Part shown: positions 5,382 to 16,500 of the stretch, piece after piece
How positions within the stretch are numbered: position 1 is the stretch's first letter
Layout: each line of letters opens with the position of its first letter
Origin: a virus
Reading direction: 5' to 3' (one strand)
IMG/VR virus record: IMGVR_UViG_3300036772_000031
Coordinates: 1-21,775 of that record
DNA length: 21,775 nt
Position numbers and translations under genes: made by a program
The notes under the pieces: generated by a model
Database searches by the model: none
What the model saw: only the letters and a program-made list of their open reading frames with translations
Told to the model about the DNA's origin: nothing

Positions 5382-5545
5382 AGACGATCGTGATCGTGTT
5401 GCTGACGCTCGTCACGTGGTGGCTGTTTCGCATGGCGTGGCGTTGGGGCATGGCTCGTTGGGATCAAGACTCGAACGTTGGGTGGATTGCATTCATCGGT
5501 GCCTGGGTCTTCATGTGTCTCGACGTGCTGGTCGCGCTGCTGTAA
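5378..5545 (+). CDS. Small two-helix membrane protein, 55 aa
   Basis: The GTG at 5378 is preceded by a strong ribosome binding site (AGGAGG, 5367-5372) and overlaps the portal stop in GTGA, so this is a real coupled gene despite its size. The product has two hydrophobic stretches. Residues 2-20 (KTIVIVLLTLVTWWLFRMA) and 36-55 (GWIAFIGAWVFMCLDVLVALL region) flank a short basic/acidic loop (WRWGMARWDQDSN). This predicts a hairpin in the inner membrane. Small bitopic or hairpin proteins of phages include holins, spanin parts and superinfection or ejection factors; nothing here picks one. A membrane protein between portal and minor head protein is unusual. Confidence 0.7.
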   Translation: MKTIVIVLLTLVTWWLFRMAWRWGMARWDQDSNVGWIAFIGAWVFMCLDVLVALL

Positions 5546-5586
5546 AATTTCGAACTTCACGAACCCGGAGCAAGAATCAACTCTCG

Positions 5587-5617
5587 TGGTTAGTGCTTGC
5601 ACCACCTAAACTAACCA
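5587..5617 (+). promoter_or_regulatory. Inverted repeat before the 5631 gene (TGGTTAGT / ACTAACCA)
   Basis: A perfect 8-bp inverted repeat, TGGTTAGT (5587-5594) and ACTAACCA (5610-5617), encloses a 15-nt loop. It directly abuts the AAGGA ribosome binding site of the next gene, so folding in mRNA could limit or set translation, or stabilise a processed 5' end. Its core GGTTAG...CTAACC recurs in the hairpin at 12709-12745. Confidence 0.5.
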
Positions 5618-5630
5618 AGGAAAAATGACA

Positions 5631-5918
5631 ATGTCAAATCGTACTCGTGCAAAAGTCACTCTCGAAACCGTCACCCGACACGGCACCGCTGCATCACCGT
5701 CCGAGACGTGGGTGTTTCGGCCCGTGTGCAAAAAAGGCGGTTACGAGCAAGGTAATGGACCGACCGCTGGCCTTGACGAAGATAATACCTTCGCCAAGTT
5801 TAGTCCATCCGGTCGTTTCGAACTGACAGTCAACAATCCAGCACTCGTCGGCACGCTGAATCCCGGTGAGCAGTACTACGTCGACTTTACGCCGGTGCCG
5901 GTCGAGCAGAAGAGCTGA
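5631..5918 (+). CDS. Hypothetical small virion-region protein, 95 aa
   Basis: Two ATGs compete (5625 and 5631). The second is preferred because the AAGGA box at 5617-5621 lies 9 nt upstream of it, against only 3 nt from the first. The product looks beta-rich: KVTLETVTRHG, ETWVFRPVC, FAKFSPSGRFELTVNNPALVG, GEQYYVDFTPV. This is consistent with a small beta-sandwich or decoration-type protein, but no family is recognised. Its place between portal and minor head protein suggests a head-related role. The following gene starts 2 nt after its stop. Confidence 0.7.
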   Translation: MSNRTRAKVTLETVTRHGTAASPSETWVFRPVCKKGGYEQGNGPTAGLDEDNTFAKFSPSGRFELTVNNPALVGTLNPGEQYYVDFTPVPVEQKS

Positions 5919-8178: not shown

Positions 8179-9321
8179 ATGTCCAATACACTGAACAGTA
8201 TCATCCCGAAGATCTTGGCTCGCGCACTGCTCGTCCTGCGTGGCCGGCTCGTCATGCCGCAGCTTGCAAATTCGGACTACGCCGCCGATGCCGCGAAGAA
8301 GGGCGACGTGATCAACGTCCAGATCCCCGCCGCGCAGACCGCGACCGACGTCACGCCGAGCAACACCAAGCCGGCTCTGTCCAGTCACACGCCGACCACC
8401 GTCCCCATCCCGCTCGATCAGTGGAAGATGACGGACTTCAACTTGACCGACAAGGACATGCAGTTGATCGACACGAACGACGCGTTCTTGCCGATGCAGA
8501 CCTACTCGGCCATCGACGCGATCGCGAGCACCATCAACAGCTACCTGTTCACGCAGTCGCTGCAGATTCCGTCGTTCACCGGCACGGCCGGCACCACGCC
8601 GTTCGCGTCCGACGCCACGGCCGTCATCAACGGTCGCAAGAAGCTCGTTCAGCAGAAGTGCCCCGACGAGCGTAAGCGCAACCTGGTTCTCGACCCGAAC
8701 GCCGAAGCCAACGCGCTCGGCCTCGCCGTCTTCGCTAACTTCGAACAGACCGGCGACCAGGGTCCGAAGATCGAAGGCGCGCTCGGCCGCAAGTATGGCG
8801 TGAATTTCTACGTCGACCAGCAGGCCCCGACCCACACGCTTGGCGCCACCGGCACCGTGACTGTCGACACCGCTGGCGGCACCGCCGGCCAGTCGACGCT
8901 GCCGGTCGTGGCCAGCTCGCTCGGCCAGCCGACCCCGGGTGATCACTTCACGATCGCCGGCGACACGACGCAGTATGTCGTCGTGAGCGCCACGACGGTT
9001 GCGTCCAACAAGTCGACGCTCACCATCTCGCCGGCTCTCGCCACCTCGCCGGTCTCCACCACGGCGATCACGTTCCTCGCTTCCTTCACGGCGAACGTGC
9101 TCTTCCACCCGCGCGCCCTCGCTTTCGCGATGCGCCCGCTGGTTCAGAGCACCGCGGACCTCGCCTTCGGCAGCAAGATCATGTCGATGCAGGACCCGCT
9201 CACGCAGATCACGCTCCGCTTGGAAGTGACCCGCGTGCACAAGGCCGTCATCTGGGAATTCGACGTCCTGTACGGCGGCGCGGTGGTCGACGGCAACTGC
9301 GGCTGCCTGATCCTCGGCTGA
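8179..9321 (+). CDS. Major capsid (coat) protein, P22 coat-like HK97 fold
   Basis: The 380-aa product follows the scaffold, with GAGG (8167-8170) 8 nt before the ATG. Features typical of the P22-gp5-type coat family are an N-terminal helix (NSIIPKILARALLVLRGRL), KKGDVINVQIP (40-50), the ATDVTPSNTKPALSSHTPTTVPIPLDQW beta region, and DQGPKIEGALGRKYGVNFYVDQQAPTHT (203-220). A Thr/Gly/Ser-rich beta-domain (about 221-305) follows, then a conserved closing part (FHPRALAFAMRPL...ITLRLEVTRVHKAVIWEFDVLYGG). Codon choice is strongly biased to C/G-ending codons, as expected for the most expressed gene. It forms the icosahedral shell. Confidence 0.9.
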   Translation: MSNTLNSIIPKILARALLVLRGRLVMPQLANSDYAADAAKKGDVINVQIPAAQTATDVTPSNTKPALSSHTPTTVPIPLDQWKMTDFNLTDKDMQLIDTNDAFLPMQTYSAIDAIASTINSYLFTQSLQIPSFTGTAGTTPFASDATAVINGRKKLVQQKCPDERKRNLVLDPNAEANALGLAVFANFEQTGDQGPKIEGALGRKYGVNFYVDQQAPTHTLGATGTVTVDTAGGTAGQSTLPVVASSLGQPTPGDHFTIAGDTTQYVVVSATTVASNKSTLTISPALATSPVSTTAITFLASFTANVLFHPRALAFAMRPLVQSTADLAFGSKIMSMQDPLTQITLRLEVTRVHKAVIWEFDVLYGGAVVDGNCGCLILG

Positions 9322-9341: not shown

Positions 9342-9375
9342 GGTGGGCGGTCTCGATCCTCGAAGGCCGCCCACC
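9342..9375 (+). terminator. Strong hairpin after the coat gene (GGTGGGCGG / CCGCCCACC)
   Basis: A perfect 9-bp GC-rich inverted repeat, 9342-9350 and 9367-9375, with a 16-nt loop, begins 20 nt after the coat stop. It is followed by TCTCTC rather than a T-run. It could partly terminate transcription or protect the coat message 3' end, allowing coat protein to exceed downstream products. It could equally be only a stability element. Confidence 0.5.
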
Positions 9376-10982: not shown

Positions 10983-11384
10983 ATGTCAGGCCTGACTGAT
11001 AGTCAAGCGGTCCTCTTACTCACCCAATACTTTGGTACCAACTTCACTGGTGCCAAGGTGGTGTACCAGGACGAGCCGATCTCAACCGACTGGACAGGTC
11101 CCTACGTTCGGATGTCGGTGCTTCTTGGTGACCCGCAGCCCAACCTCGACTCCACGTGGGAGAGAGTGACAGGCATTGCGTGGTTCCAGACTTTTACGGT
11201 GCAGGGCGTGGGCGACGTCGCAGCGTGGAGTTTGGCTGATGCGGTGGCGAACGTCATGAAGTACCAGACGATCGGCATCATCCGCCTGACGAGTGCAGGC
11301 AAGCAAAACCTCGGCGCAGGGAAAACGACGTGGAACCGCATTGACGTGCGAGTGCCATTCTTTTTCGAACGAGTCACGAGTTGA
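10983..11384 (+). CDS. Tail terminator-like protein, 133 aa
   Basis: The gene starts 1 nt after its neighbour, with AAGGTGAG upstream. The alpha/beta product has an N-terminal helix (SQAVLLLTQYFGTNF), strands VVYQDEPISTDWTGPYVRMSVLL, then WFQTFTVQGVGDVAAWSLADAVANVM and a final strand NRIDVRVPFFFERV. This order of strands and helix resembles lambda gpU-type tail terminators (and DUF4128-type proteins), which cap the tail tube and set its end. Place between the gp10-like and tube genes supports this. Confidence 0.75.
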   Translation: MSGLTDSQAVLLLTQYFGTNFTGAKVVYQDEPISTDWTGPYVRMSVLLGDPQPNLDSTWERVTGIAWFQTFTVQGVGDVAAWSLADAVANVMKYQTIGIIRLTSAGKQNLGAGKTTWNRIDVRVPFFFERVTS

Positions 11385-11527
11385 CGTGTGCACCAGGGAA
11401 TCCTAGGGATCATGGAAAATTGGGTAATATAGACATATAGGCCTCATACCAGGAGGGTCGCCAGGCTCCCGCCAGGCACACCAGGCAATACCTGGAATGA
11501 ATTCCAAAGAATTACTGGAGCATCCCA
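11385..11527 (+). repeat. Non-coding gap with a cluster of CCWGG sites before the tail tube gene
   Basis: No gene fits here. CCAGG occurs at 11393, 11449, 11461, 11472 and 11481, and CCTGG at 11491, i.e. six CCWGG sites. Five of them lie within 47 bp at 9-12 nt spacing. The last two also form an inverted repeat (CCAGG-5 nt-CCTGG, 11481-11495). CTGGAG at 11515-11520 is the ribosome binding site for the tube gene. A TAATAT at 11425-11430 has no convincing -35. Confidence 0.55.
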
Positions 11528-12691
11528 ATGAGCGACAGCAATGCGATTCAACTGGCGGTCGGCGCCGAAACAACGGCCGGCACTGCCGCAACTGGCCCGT
11601 ACACCCTACTCAACGTCAGCAGCGTCTCGCTGAAGTCGCAGAAGGGTACGGCCGAATCCAACACCATCCGCGCCGACCGCAACCTATCTGGCCTGATCAT
11701 GACGAACATGGTCCCGTCCGGCGGTTTCGGCTTCGACTTCAGCTACGGCAACTTGGACGTGCTGTTGCCGGGCATGATGTGCAACACGCTCTCGACGCCG
11801 GTCTCACTGACGACCGTCGCAGGCACCGTCGCCGGCGCGGTCTTCACCGCCACGACTGGCACGCCGTTCTCGGTCTGCACAGTGGGTCAGTGGCTCAGCA
11901 TCGTGATCAGCGGCACCCGCTACATCGTCAAGATCACGGCGATTGGCGGCTCCGGCGCGAGCATCACGGTCACTGGCGCGACACTGCCGTCTGGCGCCCA
12001 GACGATCACGACGGCCAAAGGTAAGTACTACCGCAACGGTGTTGCGCAGAAGACCTACACTTTGGAAAAGGTGTTCACCGACCAAGCCGCGTCGAATAAG
12101 CACATCTTCGGCTATCTCGGCTGCCAAGCCAACACAATGACGCTCAACGCACAAGCCGAGCAGATCGTGACTGGTGACATGCAGTTCATGGGCATGGCGT
12201 GCTTGACGCCGTATGGCACCTCATTGTCGGGCGGTGCATACACAGCGGCGCCTACTAACCAGTCATTCGCTGGCCTGACCGGCAATATCGGCCAGTTCAT
12301 CGTGAATGGCACGCTGGTCACGCCGACGGTCATGGCAGTGAAGGGTATCAACGCCTCGGTCACGAACAACGGTCGTCGCGACGCCGGCATCAACGTCGCC
12401 CGCATGGGTTGGGGCCAGTTCGGCTTGACAGGCACACTGAGCACGTACTTTCAGGGCGGACTCGCCGCTGTGGATGCGTTCTTCGCGCACACGCCGGGCA
12501 GCGTCAGTTATGTGATGACCGACCCTGCCGGCAACGTGTTCGTGGTAACGGTGAATAACCTCCAGTTCAGCGACTTCGTCAATCAGGTCGGCGGCAAAAA
12601 CCAGCCGGTCATGGGTGACTTGAACTTCACTGCGATTCTCGACTCCACCATCTCCAACGCTACGCTGCAGTTCGATATGCTGGATCCATAA
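11528..12691 (+). CDS. Major tail (tube) protein, 387 aa
   Basis: The product begins MSDSNAIQLAVGAETTAGTAATG, followed by a run with RADRNLSGLIMTNMVPSGGFGFDFSYGNLDVLL (about 48-80). That is the usual pattern of siphophage tube proteins: a 'sg...g' bend and a long beta-hairpin loop that builds the tube. About residues 88-165 form a Thr/Gly/Ser-rich beta-domain (VCTVGQWLSIVISGTRYIVK...ASITVTGATLPSG), probably exposed. The core resumes with KYYRNGVAQKTYTLEKVFTD and ends with a strand pair ending DSTISNATLQFDMLDP. Place between tail terminator and tail chaperone, and abundance-type codon bias, support the call. Confidence 0.85.
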   Translation: MSDSNAIQLAVGAETTAGTAATGPYTLLNVSSVSLKSQKGTAESNTIRADRNLSGLIMTNMVPSGGFGFDFSYGNLDVLLPGMMCNTLSTPVSLTTVAGTVAGAVFTATTGTPFSVCTVGQWLSIVISGTRYIVKITAIGGSGASITVTGATLPSGAQTITTAKGKYYRNGVAQKTYTLEKVFTDQAASNKHIFGYLGCQANTMTLNAQAEQIVTGDMQFMGMACLTPYGTSLSGGAYTAAPTNQSFAGLTGNIGQFIVNGTLVTPTVMAVKGINASVTNNGRRDAGINVARMGWGQFGLTGTLSTYFQGGLAAVDAFFAHTPGSVSYVMTDPAGNVFVVTVNNLQFSDFVNQVGGKNQPVMGDLNFTAILDSTISNATLQFDMLDP

Positions 12692-12695
12692 GTTT

Positions 12696-12745
12696 CCAGC
12701 CCCCTGGCGGCTGGGTTAGTGTGTGGCTATATTGCTAACCCAGCC
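12696..12745 (+). promoter_or_regulatory. Two mutually exclusive hairpins between tube and chaperone genes
   Basis: Segment 1 CCAGCC (12696-12701) can pair with GGCTGG (12709-12714; 6 bp, 7-nt loop). Segment 2 GGCTGGGTTAG (12709-12719) pairs perfectly with segment 3 CTAACCCAGCC (12735-12745; 11 bp, 15-nt loop). The two folds share segment 2 and exclude each other, as in attenuators. The strong fold has no T-run after it. It lies between the tube stop (12691) and the chaperone ribosome binding site (GAGGAG, about 12758-12763). Confidence 0.6.
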
Positions 12746-12771
12746 CCCGTTAACCCTCGAGGAGTGTTTCA

Positions 12772-13245
12772 ATGTTCGATATCCGCGATTTCAAGCAAGA
12801 TAAGCAGAAGGCGGAAGAAGGCATCATCCGCAAGTTTGGCGACGACGCGCACATCCGCGTGGCGCGCGCCGACAACCCGAAATACCAGAAGAAGATGCGT
12901 GGCTCGCTCGAGCAGTACCGCAACTTCCGTCGCGGCAAGATCCCTGCCGGCGTCATCGATGACGCTGTGTGCGCGGCCGTCGCCGAAACGATCTTGCTCG
13001 AGATGAAGGGCTTCCGTGACGGCGCGGGTGACATTACCGGCACCGCGGGTGCCGTGATCGAGGACACCTATGAGAACCGCTTAAAGGTTCTCAAGCACGA
13101 GGATTACGTGGAATTCCGCGACCTCGTTGCGAACATGTCGCAAGACTTCGACCAGTATCGCGTGGCAGTCGAAGAGGAAGAAGAGGGAAACTCCGCAAGC
13201 TCGTCCAGTGGTCTTGGGGTTGGGGAAGTCACGCAAGCTTCCTGA
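12772..13245 (+). CDS. Tail assembly chaperone, short form (lambda G-like), 157 aa
   Basis: The ATG follows GAGGAG with normal spacing. The product starts MFDIRDFKQDKQKAEEGIIR and has a conserved-looking middle (RGKIPAGVIDDAVCAAVAETILLEMKGF). It then has an acidic run EEEEEGN at the slippery site and a Ser/Gly-rich tail of about 17 residues that looks like low-complexity filler to the stop at 13243-13245. Together with place between tube and tape measure, this fits the G part of the G/GT chaperone pair, which binds tape measure and tube subunits before tail assembly and is absent from the finished virion. Family call is by synteny and the frameshift. Confidence 0.85.
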   Translation: MFDIRDFKQDKQKAEEGIIRKFGDDAHIRVARADNPKYQKKMRGSLEQYRNFRRGKIPAGVIDDAVCAAVAETILLEMKGFRDGAGDITGTAGAVIEDTYENRLKVLKHEDYVEFRDLVANMSQDFDQYRVAVEEEEEGNSASSSSGLGVGEVTQAS

Positions 13246-13574
13246 AACTCATCGAGAAACAAACTGGCGAGCGACCAGATGTACTAGATGACGAGCCTGA
13301 TCAAGGATATGATTGGGAGTATGGACACCTGCTACGCTCATTCGCGATTTTAAACAAGTCGCGAGTGCGCAAGAGGACTGAAGGTTCTCTAGCAGGACAG
13401 CCTGTGGTTCAGATCACGACATGCAGTTTGAGCCTGGAAAGTATACTCGCTTACGCGAGAGAGTTTCCAGACGATGTCGATGACCTCAGAAGATTTGTTA
13501 GACTCATTCAGATTCTTGACGAAGAGTTCCTGAACCATGGATCTAGGCGAAGCCAAACTACGCGTAACAGTTGA
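12772..13574 (+). CDS. Tail assembly chaperone, -1 frameshift long form (lambda GT-like), 267 aa
   Basis: Zero-frame reading to AAC (13189-13191), slipping back one base at GGGAAAC, continues at CTC 13191 in the -1 frame to TGA 13572-13574. The fusion keeps 140 residues of the short form and adds about 127: LRKLVQWSWGWGSHASFLKLIEK..., then SLSLESILAYAREFPDDVDDLRRFVRLIQILDEEFLNHG. The -1 extension is fully open and protein-like, and overlaps the tape measure start by 38 nt, exactly as T does before the tape measure in lambda-like phages. There is no independent start with a good ribosome site for the downstream part, so frameshifting is the natural route. Confidence 0.85.
13185..13191 (+). other. 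-1 ribosomal slippery heptamer G GGA AAC
   Basis: The sequence has canonical X_XXY_YYZ form in the zero frame (G GGA AAC), allowing re-pairing on GGG AAA. Lambda G/GT uses the close relative GGGAAAG. A purine-rich, Shine-Dalgarno-like AGAGGAAG lies 4-12 nt upstream (13173-13180), which stimulates -1 slipping in some bacterial genes. A modest GGAAG/CTTCC hairpin lies about 30 nt downstream. Confidence 0.9.
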
Positions 13575-16500
13575 CGCCTCCGGAGCGAAACAGGGCGCTT
13601 CGGACGCCAACTCAGCGTTTCAGTCAATGATGGAGAAGGCGCTCAAGGCGCTCGAATCCATCGAGAAGAGTTCTGAAGAGACTGCATCAGGAATTGAGAA
13701 GCTCAAGGAGTCTGCTGAGAAGAGTGAGCAAGGTTTCGACGCTCTCATTGAGAAGGGCAAGCAACTGATTGAAGTCCTTGGATTGATCGAGATCGCTCAC
13801 CAATTCATCGAAGCAGGTTCCGAAGCAGAGAATCTTCGCATTCGCTTAAACGCGCTTGTCGGCGACGGCACGAAAGCGCTTGAACTGTTCGAGAATCTGC
13901 AGAAGTACGCCGGCAGCACTGCCTTCGGCATGAAAGACGTGGGCAATTCTGCGCTGCAACTGACAGGCGTCTTCAAGGGCAACGTGGAAGCTGTGCAGGC
14001 CTGGATCCCGCTCATCGGCGATCTAGCCTCAGCGACAGGTCAGACAATCGATGAGACTACGACTGAAGTCATCCGCATGATGACTCAGGGGGGCAACGGT
14101 GCTGGCGCATTTCGCGATCGTGGTCTCGCTGCCATGCTCGACCTGCAGCGTGGCGTCGACTACAGCGCGAAAGACATTCGTGACAAGCTCATCGCTGCAT
14201 GGGAGGATCCCTCATCTAAGTTCCGTGACGCGGCGGCGCAGATGGGCACCACGTGGACAGGCACCATGAACCAACTCACCCATGCGTGGGATGAGTTCAT
14301 GGAGGCTGTGATGATTAAAGGTGGTGTCCTAGATTACCTGAAAGCCATCATCCAAGTGCTGACCAAAGATTTCAAAGACGCGTTCGTTGAGAGTGACACA
14401 GTCGCAAAATCTTTTGGACTTAACGCTACCTCAGCGCTCGCTGATATTGGTAAGGGAATCGGATACGTCGTTGAAAGTTCGCGGTTTCTTTCGCTGACGT
14501 GGGACGCTCTCAAGACGTCGATCTCTGGCATCGAAACTGTGTGGGCTCGCATGGAGCAAGCCGGCGCGCAACTCTCTGCGCGCAACTCTGATATCGCTGT
14601 GAAAGCCCAGCAGGACACCATTCAGTATATGAAGGACATGGGCGGCGTCAGTGACACTGATGAAGCCATGATCAAAGCCAAGGCTGACCTTCGTGATCTT
14701 CTCGTGAAGGAGACTAAGGCGTGGCAAGACGCGTCTGACGCGACGCAGAATTACGAGAAGACTTCTGAGAGCAATCAGAAGACCACAGACGAGCTGTTCG
14801 CGTCATACCAGAAATTCCAGGAAGGGTTTGATCCGCAGAAGTTTATCGACGAACTCAATGAGCAGTTTCAGAAGAATCAGGATGTCATCGCTGGCAACAT
14901 TCAGAAGAATAAGGACTTCACGTCCAGTCTGCGTGACTTCGCACCTCCCATCGACGATAGTGTAGCAGCACTGAAAAAGTTAACGCAAGCCAAGACTGAA
15001 CTGGCCGATCTCGACAACAAGTTGGTAGGTCTCGACGCTCAAGCTCAGGCGAATATCAACCCTGTGACAGCAGCTTATGATAAGTACACGAAGGCTGTTG
15101 GTGAGGCGGCGCTCATCAAGCAGAAAGAAGAAGCGTTGACGCGAGATTACCCAGCGCTTGGCTTGACCGAAGCTGGAATCGTCGCGAAAGTCACTCAAAC
15201 TGTCAATGATCTAGCGACAGCGCGTGACAATGAGATCAAGAAAGCCCAGCAAGAAGCCGACGTCATTGGCCGCTTTGAGCGCCAGCTCCTGCAAGACGAT
15301 TCGCTGGACGCGCTCACTGATAAGCAGAAAGCTGTCCAAGAAGCTACGAACAAGGTCATCGACGAATACATTAAGCTGTCACCGGCGTTACAGGCCCTGC
15401 ACCCGCTGACTGCTGAAGCCATCGTTGACATGCGCAATTTCGTCGCGCAGCAGTACGACCAGAAACAGTCAATCACTCAAGCTCGCCAGATCTTGACAGA
15501 CTACGCAAATTCTTGGAAGAGTGGTTTCGACTCGATGGCGAGCGACGCGGCCAAGTTCTTCACTGGTCAGATCAAGAGCTGGGGAGATTTCGGTAAGGCG
15601 CTGATCAATGACGTGAGCAACATGGTCACGCAGATCATCGCGCAGTTCCTTGAACTGCAGTTCCTGAATCCCATCTTAAACTCAATGTTCCAAGGGATTC
15701 TGAACTTGCCAACTTACGCTACGGCGCAATTCGGCATGGGCCAGATTCTTGGAACGCTTGGTAGTGGCGCAGGCACCGCGCTTGGCGGTGGCGGCAGCGG
15801 TGCATTTGCCGGTTCTCAAGCTGCTGGTTCACTTGGCGGTGCCTCAGCGCTCAGCAGTCTCGGCTCACTGGGACAGCTCGGCAGCTTGTTCGGCAGCAAC
15901 AGCCTGATCGGGAGCGGCATCACCTCACTCTTTGGTTCTAGCGCGGTTGGCGCAGGTGGCACGGGCGCGTTCGCTGGAGCTACGGCTGGAGCTTCTCAGA
16001 CAGGTTTGCTTGGTACTACAGGTCTTGGCAACGCGTTCGGCACATACGCGCCAGTACTTGGCGGGTTCATGTTGGGTGACAAGCTGGGTGGGACTGGAGG
16101 TGGCATAGCGTTGGCTGCTGCGTCTTACTTCGTGCCTATCATCGGTTGGATTTCGGGTGCGCTCTCACTCATCGACAAGTTCACTGGTGGTGGCTTGCTT
16201 GGCACAGATTGGAAACCCACCGGCACCGTCACGACTGGCTTGAACGTCGGTAGTAGTGGTGCGAGCGTTCAAGATTGGCTCAACGAATCTAAGAAAGGCT
16301 CGCTCTTCTCTGGGCGTTCCTGGCGTAATGTATCCGTCGATCCTACGCAAGATCAAACTGATGCGGCTAACGCGTTCTTTACAGGTCTCCAGAAAGCTGT
16401 CGCAACATCGGCCGCCCAATTGGGCGTGAAAGCTGGCGATCTTGTTACTGGCTCGTTTACTCAGATCACTGACAAGAGCGGAAATATCACGTCTCAAATT

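Follow-up and report, generated by a model that had tools for sequence, protein, structure and literature searches.

A stable hairpin between the tail tube and chaperone genes of a viral genome and a covarying loop-pairing element at the same boundary in related phages

Introduction

Siphophages need hundreds of tail tube subunits and few tail assembly chaperones. To our knowledge, no element setting the tube-to-chaperone ratio has been described apart from the frameshift in the chaperone gene. Attenuators of the trp and his type consist of two overlapping hairpins that have one arm in common and fold in order. REP-like intergenic hairpins of bacterial operons protect the 3' ends of mRNAs. In phage SPP1, a Rho-independent terminator is predicted at 11,255-11,304, where it overlaps the end of the tube gene 17.1* (stop at 11,279; PMC6316719, Table 2) and precedes the chaperone gene 17.5 (start at 11,363); another terminator is predicted in the late region at 8775-8815 (PMC6316719).

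In this study, we analyzed the tube-chaperone boundary of the window, the whole stretch of 21,775 nt from IMG/VR record IMGVR_UViG_3300036772_000031. An earlier note on this DNA had described two mutually exclusive hairpins at 12696-12745 and proposed that they form a switch that may set the tube-to-chaperone ratio. The sequence and coordinates given there were exact when checked against the window letters.

Results

Genes and segments at the boundary

The flanking genes had been named as tail tube and chaperone, and profile searches agreed with both identities. The window chaperone aligned with its relatives over its whole length. The gap between the two genes is 80 nt. The features of the boundary are as follows.

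11528-12691, plus strand, major tail tube gene, 387 aa (Pfam PF18906 Phage_tube_2, E 2e-28; PHROG 290, E 3e-49)
12689-12691, plus strand, stop codon TAA of the tail tube gene (sequence)
12696-12701, plus strand, U, CCAGCC, upstream partner of the 5' arm, which begins the first copy of CCAGCCCCC (sequence, cotranscriptional fold)
12709-12719, plus strand, L, the 5' arm GGCTGGGTTAG common to both hairpins (sequence, inverted repeat, folding)
12720-12734, plus strand, 15-nt loop of the stable hairpin (folding)
12735-12745, plus strand, D, the 3' arm CTAACCCAGCC of the stable 11-bp hairpin (sequence, inverted repeat, pairing probability >0.99)
12750-12756, plus strand, TTAACCC, third possible partner of GGGTTAG in L, adjoining the ribosome site upstream (sequence, folding)
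12760-12764, plus strand, Shine-Dalgarno AGGAG of the chaperone gene (sequence)
12772, plus strand, ATG of the chaperone gene (sequence)
12772-13245, plus strand, tail assembly chaperone (G-like), 157 aa (PHROG 313, E 4e-9; alignment with relatives)
13185-13191, plus strand, slippery heptamer GGGAAAC in frame G_GGA_AAC at the end of the chaperone gene (sequence, alignment)

The order 3' of the tube stop is GTTT-CCAGCC-CCCTGGC-GGCTGGGTTAG-(15 nt)-CTAACCCAGCC-CCCG-TTAACCC-TCG-AGGAG-TGTTTCA-ATG. U spans the positions 5-10 nt beyond the tube stop, and the chaperone ribosome site is about 15 nt downstream of 12745. Two features had been overlooked: a 9-nt direct repeat of CCAGCCCCC, with copies at 12696-12704 and 12740-12748 that include both CCAGCC segments, and the third partner TTAACCC, which is weak. 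At the end of the chaperone gene, the -1 (GT) frame is open to about 13574 and runs into the tape-measure start. The heptamer and this open frame likely represent a programmed G/GT frameshift in the usual arrangement. The GGGAAAC heptamer was also present in the relative L001, and phage Colossus has the same heptamer according to the phiCbK genome paper (PMC3556154).

The 11-bp hairpin dominates the fold

The 6-bp and 11-bp hairpins are indeed mutually exclusive, since CCAGCC and CTAACCCAGCC contest the same arm, GGCTGGGTTAG. The pairing of CCAGCC (12696) with GGCTGG (12709) has an energy of -9.3 kcal/mol, and the pairing of GGCTGGGTTAG with CTAACCCAGCC has -21.3 kcal/mol, or -24.9 kcal/mol with flanking pairs. 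The energy gap of about 15 kcal/mol favored the 11-bp form over the 6-bp form. At equilibrium, the 11-bp form had a probability of >0.99 and the 6-bp form of 0, so that the proposed bistable attenuator or switch found no support there; the pairing of TTAACCC with L also had zero probability. When the growing transcript was folded, a hairpin of 6-7 bp formed between about 12714 and 12738 and was displaced from about 12741. The folding predictions suggest that the 6-bp form would be at most transient and would occur during transcription only. A sensor holding the 6-bp form may be compatible with these folding results.

In a transcription attenuator, the 6-bp hairpin would act as an anti-terminator and decide whether the 11-bp terminator forms. 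Like the trp and his attenuators, the window has overlapping hairpins that share an arm and fold in order during transcription, and a tube ribosome that terminates would sit over U. Unlike them, the window has no T-run, no leader peptide or sensor was seen, and the late hairpin wins completely. The mutually exclusive folds with a shared arm that mark attenuators and riboswitches are present, whereas population of both folds and an expression platform were not found. The arrangement was also not conserved in the relative L007. No Rfam family matched anywhere in the window at the gathering threshold, and none matched the gap region even at a permissive E-value. Given the energy difference and the missing parts, we regard attenuation as highly improbable.

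Shielding of the chaperone ribosome site by the hairpin had been proposed as well. The predicted fold contradicted this, because the AUG was >0.9 unpaired and AGGAG was partly paired by a weak separate helix and not by the hairpin.

The hairpin could also belong to a late sub-operon as its plain intrinsic terminator. The GC-rich hairpin of such a terminator is present (11 bp perfect, -21 to -25 kcal/mol), whereas the immediate T-run is not: no T-run follows either hairpin, and CCCCGTTAACC comes directly 3' of the stem. A terminator scan of the plus strand from 11500 to 14000 gave no site, and the scanned stretch held no promoter-like site on the plus strand to restart transcription. Termination at this hairpin would be weak, since the T-run is absent. 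Terminator-like hairpins do occur 3' of the tube gene in the relatives L170 and L181, and a hairpin with a T-run was found in only 10 of 72 tube gaps. The predicted SPP1 terminator between 17.1/17.1* and 17.5 resembles the window in having a strong hairpin at the same gene boundary (PMC6316719). The SPP1 hairpin, a standard prediction of an intrinsic terminator, has a T-run at its end, whereas that of the window lacks one. With these hairpins on one side and the missing T-run, terminator site and restart site on the other, plain termination is quite improbable for the window.

The hairpin exceeds chance within its gap

Among the non-palindromic inverted repeats of the window, the one with the arms 12706-12719 and 12735-12748 is the longest. 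A hairpin of this kind could be neutral or have arisen by chance, with no selected role, and it comes from one genome only. In shuffled windows, the expected number of perfect stems of at least 11 bp with a loop of at most 30 nt was 0.175, and 15% of the shuffles contained one or more. Inside its own 80-nt gap, however, a stem that long was reached in none of 200 dinucleotide shuffles. The 11-bp hairpin exceeds chance within its gap. The triple CCAGCC-GGCTGG-CCAGCC (a segment, its complement and the same segment) appeared in 0.38% of 5000 gap shuffles. The fold energy of the gap was only mildly unusual (z -2.1 to -2.2), and folds as strong were found in many coding stretches. A neutral or chance hairpin is improbable, because long stems are found independently in relatives in this same short gap between tube and chaperone.

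Relatives keep structure at the boundary while the sequence changes

No relatives of the window at the DNA level were found among phage records. The chaperone alone as a query of viral contigs gave no matches, nor did a two-sequence tube profile searched against bacterial genome contigs. Five IMG/VR contigs (L001-L005) encode a tube that is 61% identical and a chaperone that is 46-47% identical to those of the window. The 115-nt gap of these contigs has a sequence unrelated to that of the window and contains two strong hairpins. Since these gaps are unrelated in sequence yet strongly folded, structure is kept at the boundary while the sequence changes. The covariation evidence given below comes from other tube-related phages; L001-L005, the only close relatives, share no gap sequence with the window hairpin.

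We compared tube, capsid and other same-strand gaps of named phages and of metagenome loci found via the tube or capsid protein. Tube gaps could not be told from the rest by fold-energy z-score (p 0.14), and 21 of 32 comparison gaps had an energy p of at most 0.05. Stem length was adopted as the measure after the energies had been seen, since energy did not separate the gap classes, and by this measure a perfect stem of at least 8 bp was present in 11 of 12 tube gaps of at least 50 nt versus 7 of 32 control gaps (Fisher p 4e-5). A long stem was thus also found in about one-fifth of the comparison gaps. Gaps shorter than 45 nt were mostly without long stems, so the boundary hairpin is not essential. 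Different lineages seem to place different structures at the tube-chaperone boundary.

Some gaps after the tube gene had features of their own. In L168, the chaperone AGGAG lies inside a long, near-perfect stem ending near the start codon, which is a candidate for hidden translation initiation. L160, L161 and L167 have a tube-chaperone gap of 425 nt, apparently with an extra small reading frame.

A hairpin also follows the major capsid gene (8179-9321) of the window.

9342-9375, plus strand, hairpin GGTGGGCGGTCT...AGGCCGCCCACC after the major capsid gene, -26.9 kcal/mol (inverted repeat, folding)

No other 70-nt stretch of the plus strand folds as stably as that in this capsid gap. The capsid gaps in the comparison, those of relatives included, nearly always had hairpins (16 of 17 with an energy p of at most 0.05), several with T-runs, and the hairpin after the capsid gene of PaMx74 is annotated as a terminator.

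A covarying loop-pairing element in tube-related phages

Tube-profile searches yielded 79 viral-contig and 28 bacterial-genome loci, which were picked by protein and not by RNA. The hosts of the named phages are Caulobacter, Rhodobacter, Ruegeria, Erythrobacter, Sphingobium, Brevundimonas and Dinoroseobacter. The genome loci are mostly from Rhizobiales or other Alphaproteobacteria, and a few are labelled otherwise. Many gaps contain a GC-rich hairpin with the loop TGTCGGG or a variant, with CCCGAC upstream and CCCGAC again just before the ribosome site. A further copy of the loop complement often lies between the ribosome site and the start codon. The loci of this element include the following.

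L035 (phiCbK), 5694-5843, at 58708-58857 of the phiCbK record
L036 (RcXuper), 5694-5834
L038 (XM05), 5703-5874
L048 (Lacusarx), 5487-5748
L050, 5703-5903
L051, 5733-6048
L141, L147, L155 and L156, tube-chaperone gaps

In several loci with a variant loop, the downstream segment changes with it, as in ATCGGGG/CCCCGAT (phiCbK), TGTCAGGC/GCCTGACA (L126), TGCTGG/CCAGCA (L155), TATGCGGGT/ACCCGCATA (L156) and TTGGTCGG/CCGACCAA (L179 and L184). In a swap test, the complementarity of loops to their own downstream segments was 5.46, compared with 4.66 +/- 0.10 across exchanged phages, and none of 5000 exchanges reached it. For the 39 loops without GTCGG, the values were 4.49 and 3.88 +/- 0.13 (0/5000). 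In 43 gaps whose hairpins were located by loop core motifs, a 6-nt loop complement before the last 14 nt was found in 22 (shuffled mean 1.9) and a 5-nt loop complement within the last 14 nt in 20 (shuffled mean 3.9). An ordered triple of at least 6 nt was present in 38 of 72 gaps versus 7.7 expected; many of the element loci are related, and the counts are not independent events. Nine positions of the element stem show 88-100% pairing, each through several pair types, and the stem sequence varies freely. The comparisons of loops and downstream segments suggest that the loop pairs downstream; its complements lie 5' of the hairpin, 5' of the ribosome site and in many cases also 5' of the start codon. 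In L147 and L155, the upstream copy forms a hairpin loop of its own, which makes a kissing interaction possible.

Short, perfect or near-perfect palindromes (CTCAGCGCTGAG, GCCATGGC, TTCGCTGGCGAA and CTCACCGGTGAG) were observed upstream of the loop-pairing hairpin in L035, L036, L038, L048, L050, L051 and L096. The palindrome differs between groups.

The covariance model of the element, R1, was run against eight records of 130-310 kb, most of which had contributed a sequence to it, and gave one strong match per genome, at the boundary, in six of the eight. For Bajun and C1, too, the boundary gave the best match, though a weak one (E 0.02-0.03). No Rfam family matched the element of the relatives. 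Within the literature covered, which was incomplete, no RNA element was described at the tube-chaperone boundary beyond predicted terminators, and the covered parts of the phiCbK genome paper mention no such element (PMC3556154). The covarying loop-pairing element at this boundary is apparently new to the literature.

Relation of the window hairpin to the element

The window hairpin could be a divergent member of this family, in which the hairpin-borne L would pair with U or with D-side copies near the ribosome site and control chaperone translation. The two are alike in the gene boundary, the GC-rich hairpin, the complementary segments on both sides (the triple described above) and a downstream copy near the ribosome site. 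In an alignment, TTAACCC and GAGGAG resemble the TTAACCCGACGAGGA of the family. When R1 was run on the whole window, its best match fell exactly at 12706-12772; the score of 9.3 bits (E 0.98) is not significant, and a second site has 9.2 bits. With the location taken as given, the E-value in the 151-nt region was 0.007, but any GC hairpin upstream of a ribosome site would gain in this way. In the element, the paired segment lies in the loop and is usually TGTCGGG, whereas in the window TGTCGGG is absent and L, the complement of D, sits in the stem and not in the loop. On inspection, the 15-nt window loop had no flanking complement, and the closest relative, L007, showed no triple of this kind. 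Compensatory evidence supports the element in tube-related phages. The membership of the window hairpin is uncertain, and we consider a divergent element unlikely here. If it were true, a hairpin-borne segment pairing upstream or around the chaperone ribosome site would set the amount of chaperone made per tube.

Discussion

We favor, with moderate confidence, the reading that the 11-bp stem is a boundary hairpin placed 3' of a high-copy structural gene, which would lower the amount of intact chaperone message relative to tube message. Once RNA polymerase has passed 12745, the hairpin would fold almost irreversibly. It would then shield the 3' end of the tube mRNA from exonucleases, give weak, T-run-independent termination or processing, or both. 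As a result, less intact message would reach the chaperone ribosome site, and chaperone output would be lowered relative to tube. The 6-bp alternative would be at most a short-lived intermediate, and a terminating tube ribosome would cover U.

Several lines of evidence support the boundary-hairpin reading. In the window itself, these are the pairing probability of the 11-bp form and a stem length above chance in the gap. Among relatives, they are the hairpins of unrelated sequence in the phages with a 61% identical tube and the excess of long stems in tube gaps. The hairpin after the capsid gene, the predicted SPP1 terminator and the terminator-like hairpins of L170 and L181 support it as well. 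Against it stand the missing T-run of the window hairpin, the small share of tube gaps with a T-run hairpin, the short gaps that mostly do without a long stem, the failure of fold energy to set tube gaps apart, and the long stems of some comparison gaps. The window also resembles REP-like hairpins in having a stable stem without a T-run 3' of a highly expressed operon gene. It differs from them in being a single copy without a REP sequence family, and its protective role is putative.

The recurring hairpins of relatives and the covarying element make it more likely that a structure at this boundary sets the tube-to-chaperone ratio. Structure recurs at the exact tube-chaperone boundary while the sequence turns over. 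Since phiCbK and RcXuper can be grown in the laboratory and carry the covarying loop-pairing element, the question of the ratio is directly testable in these phages.
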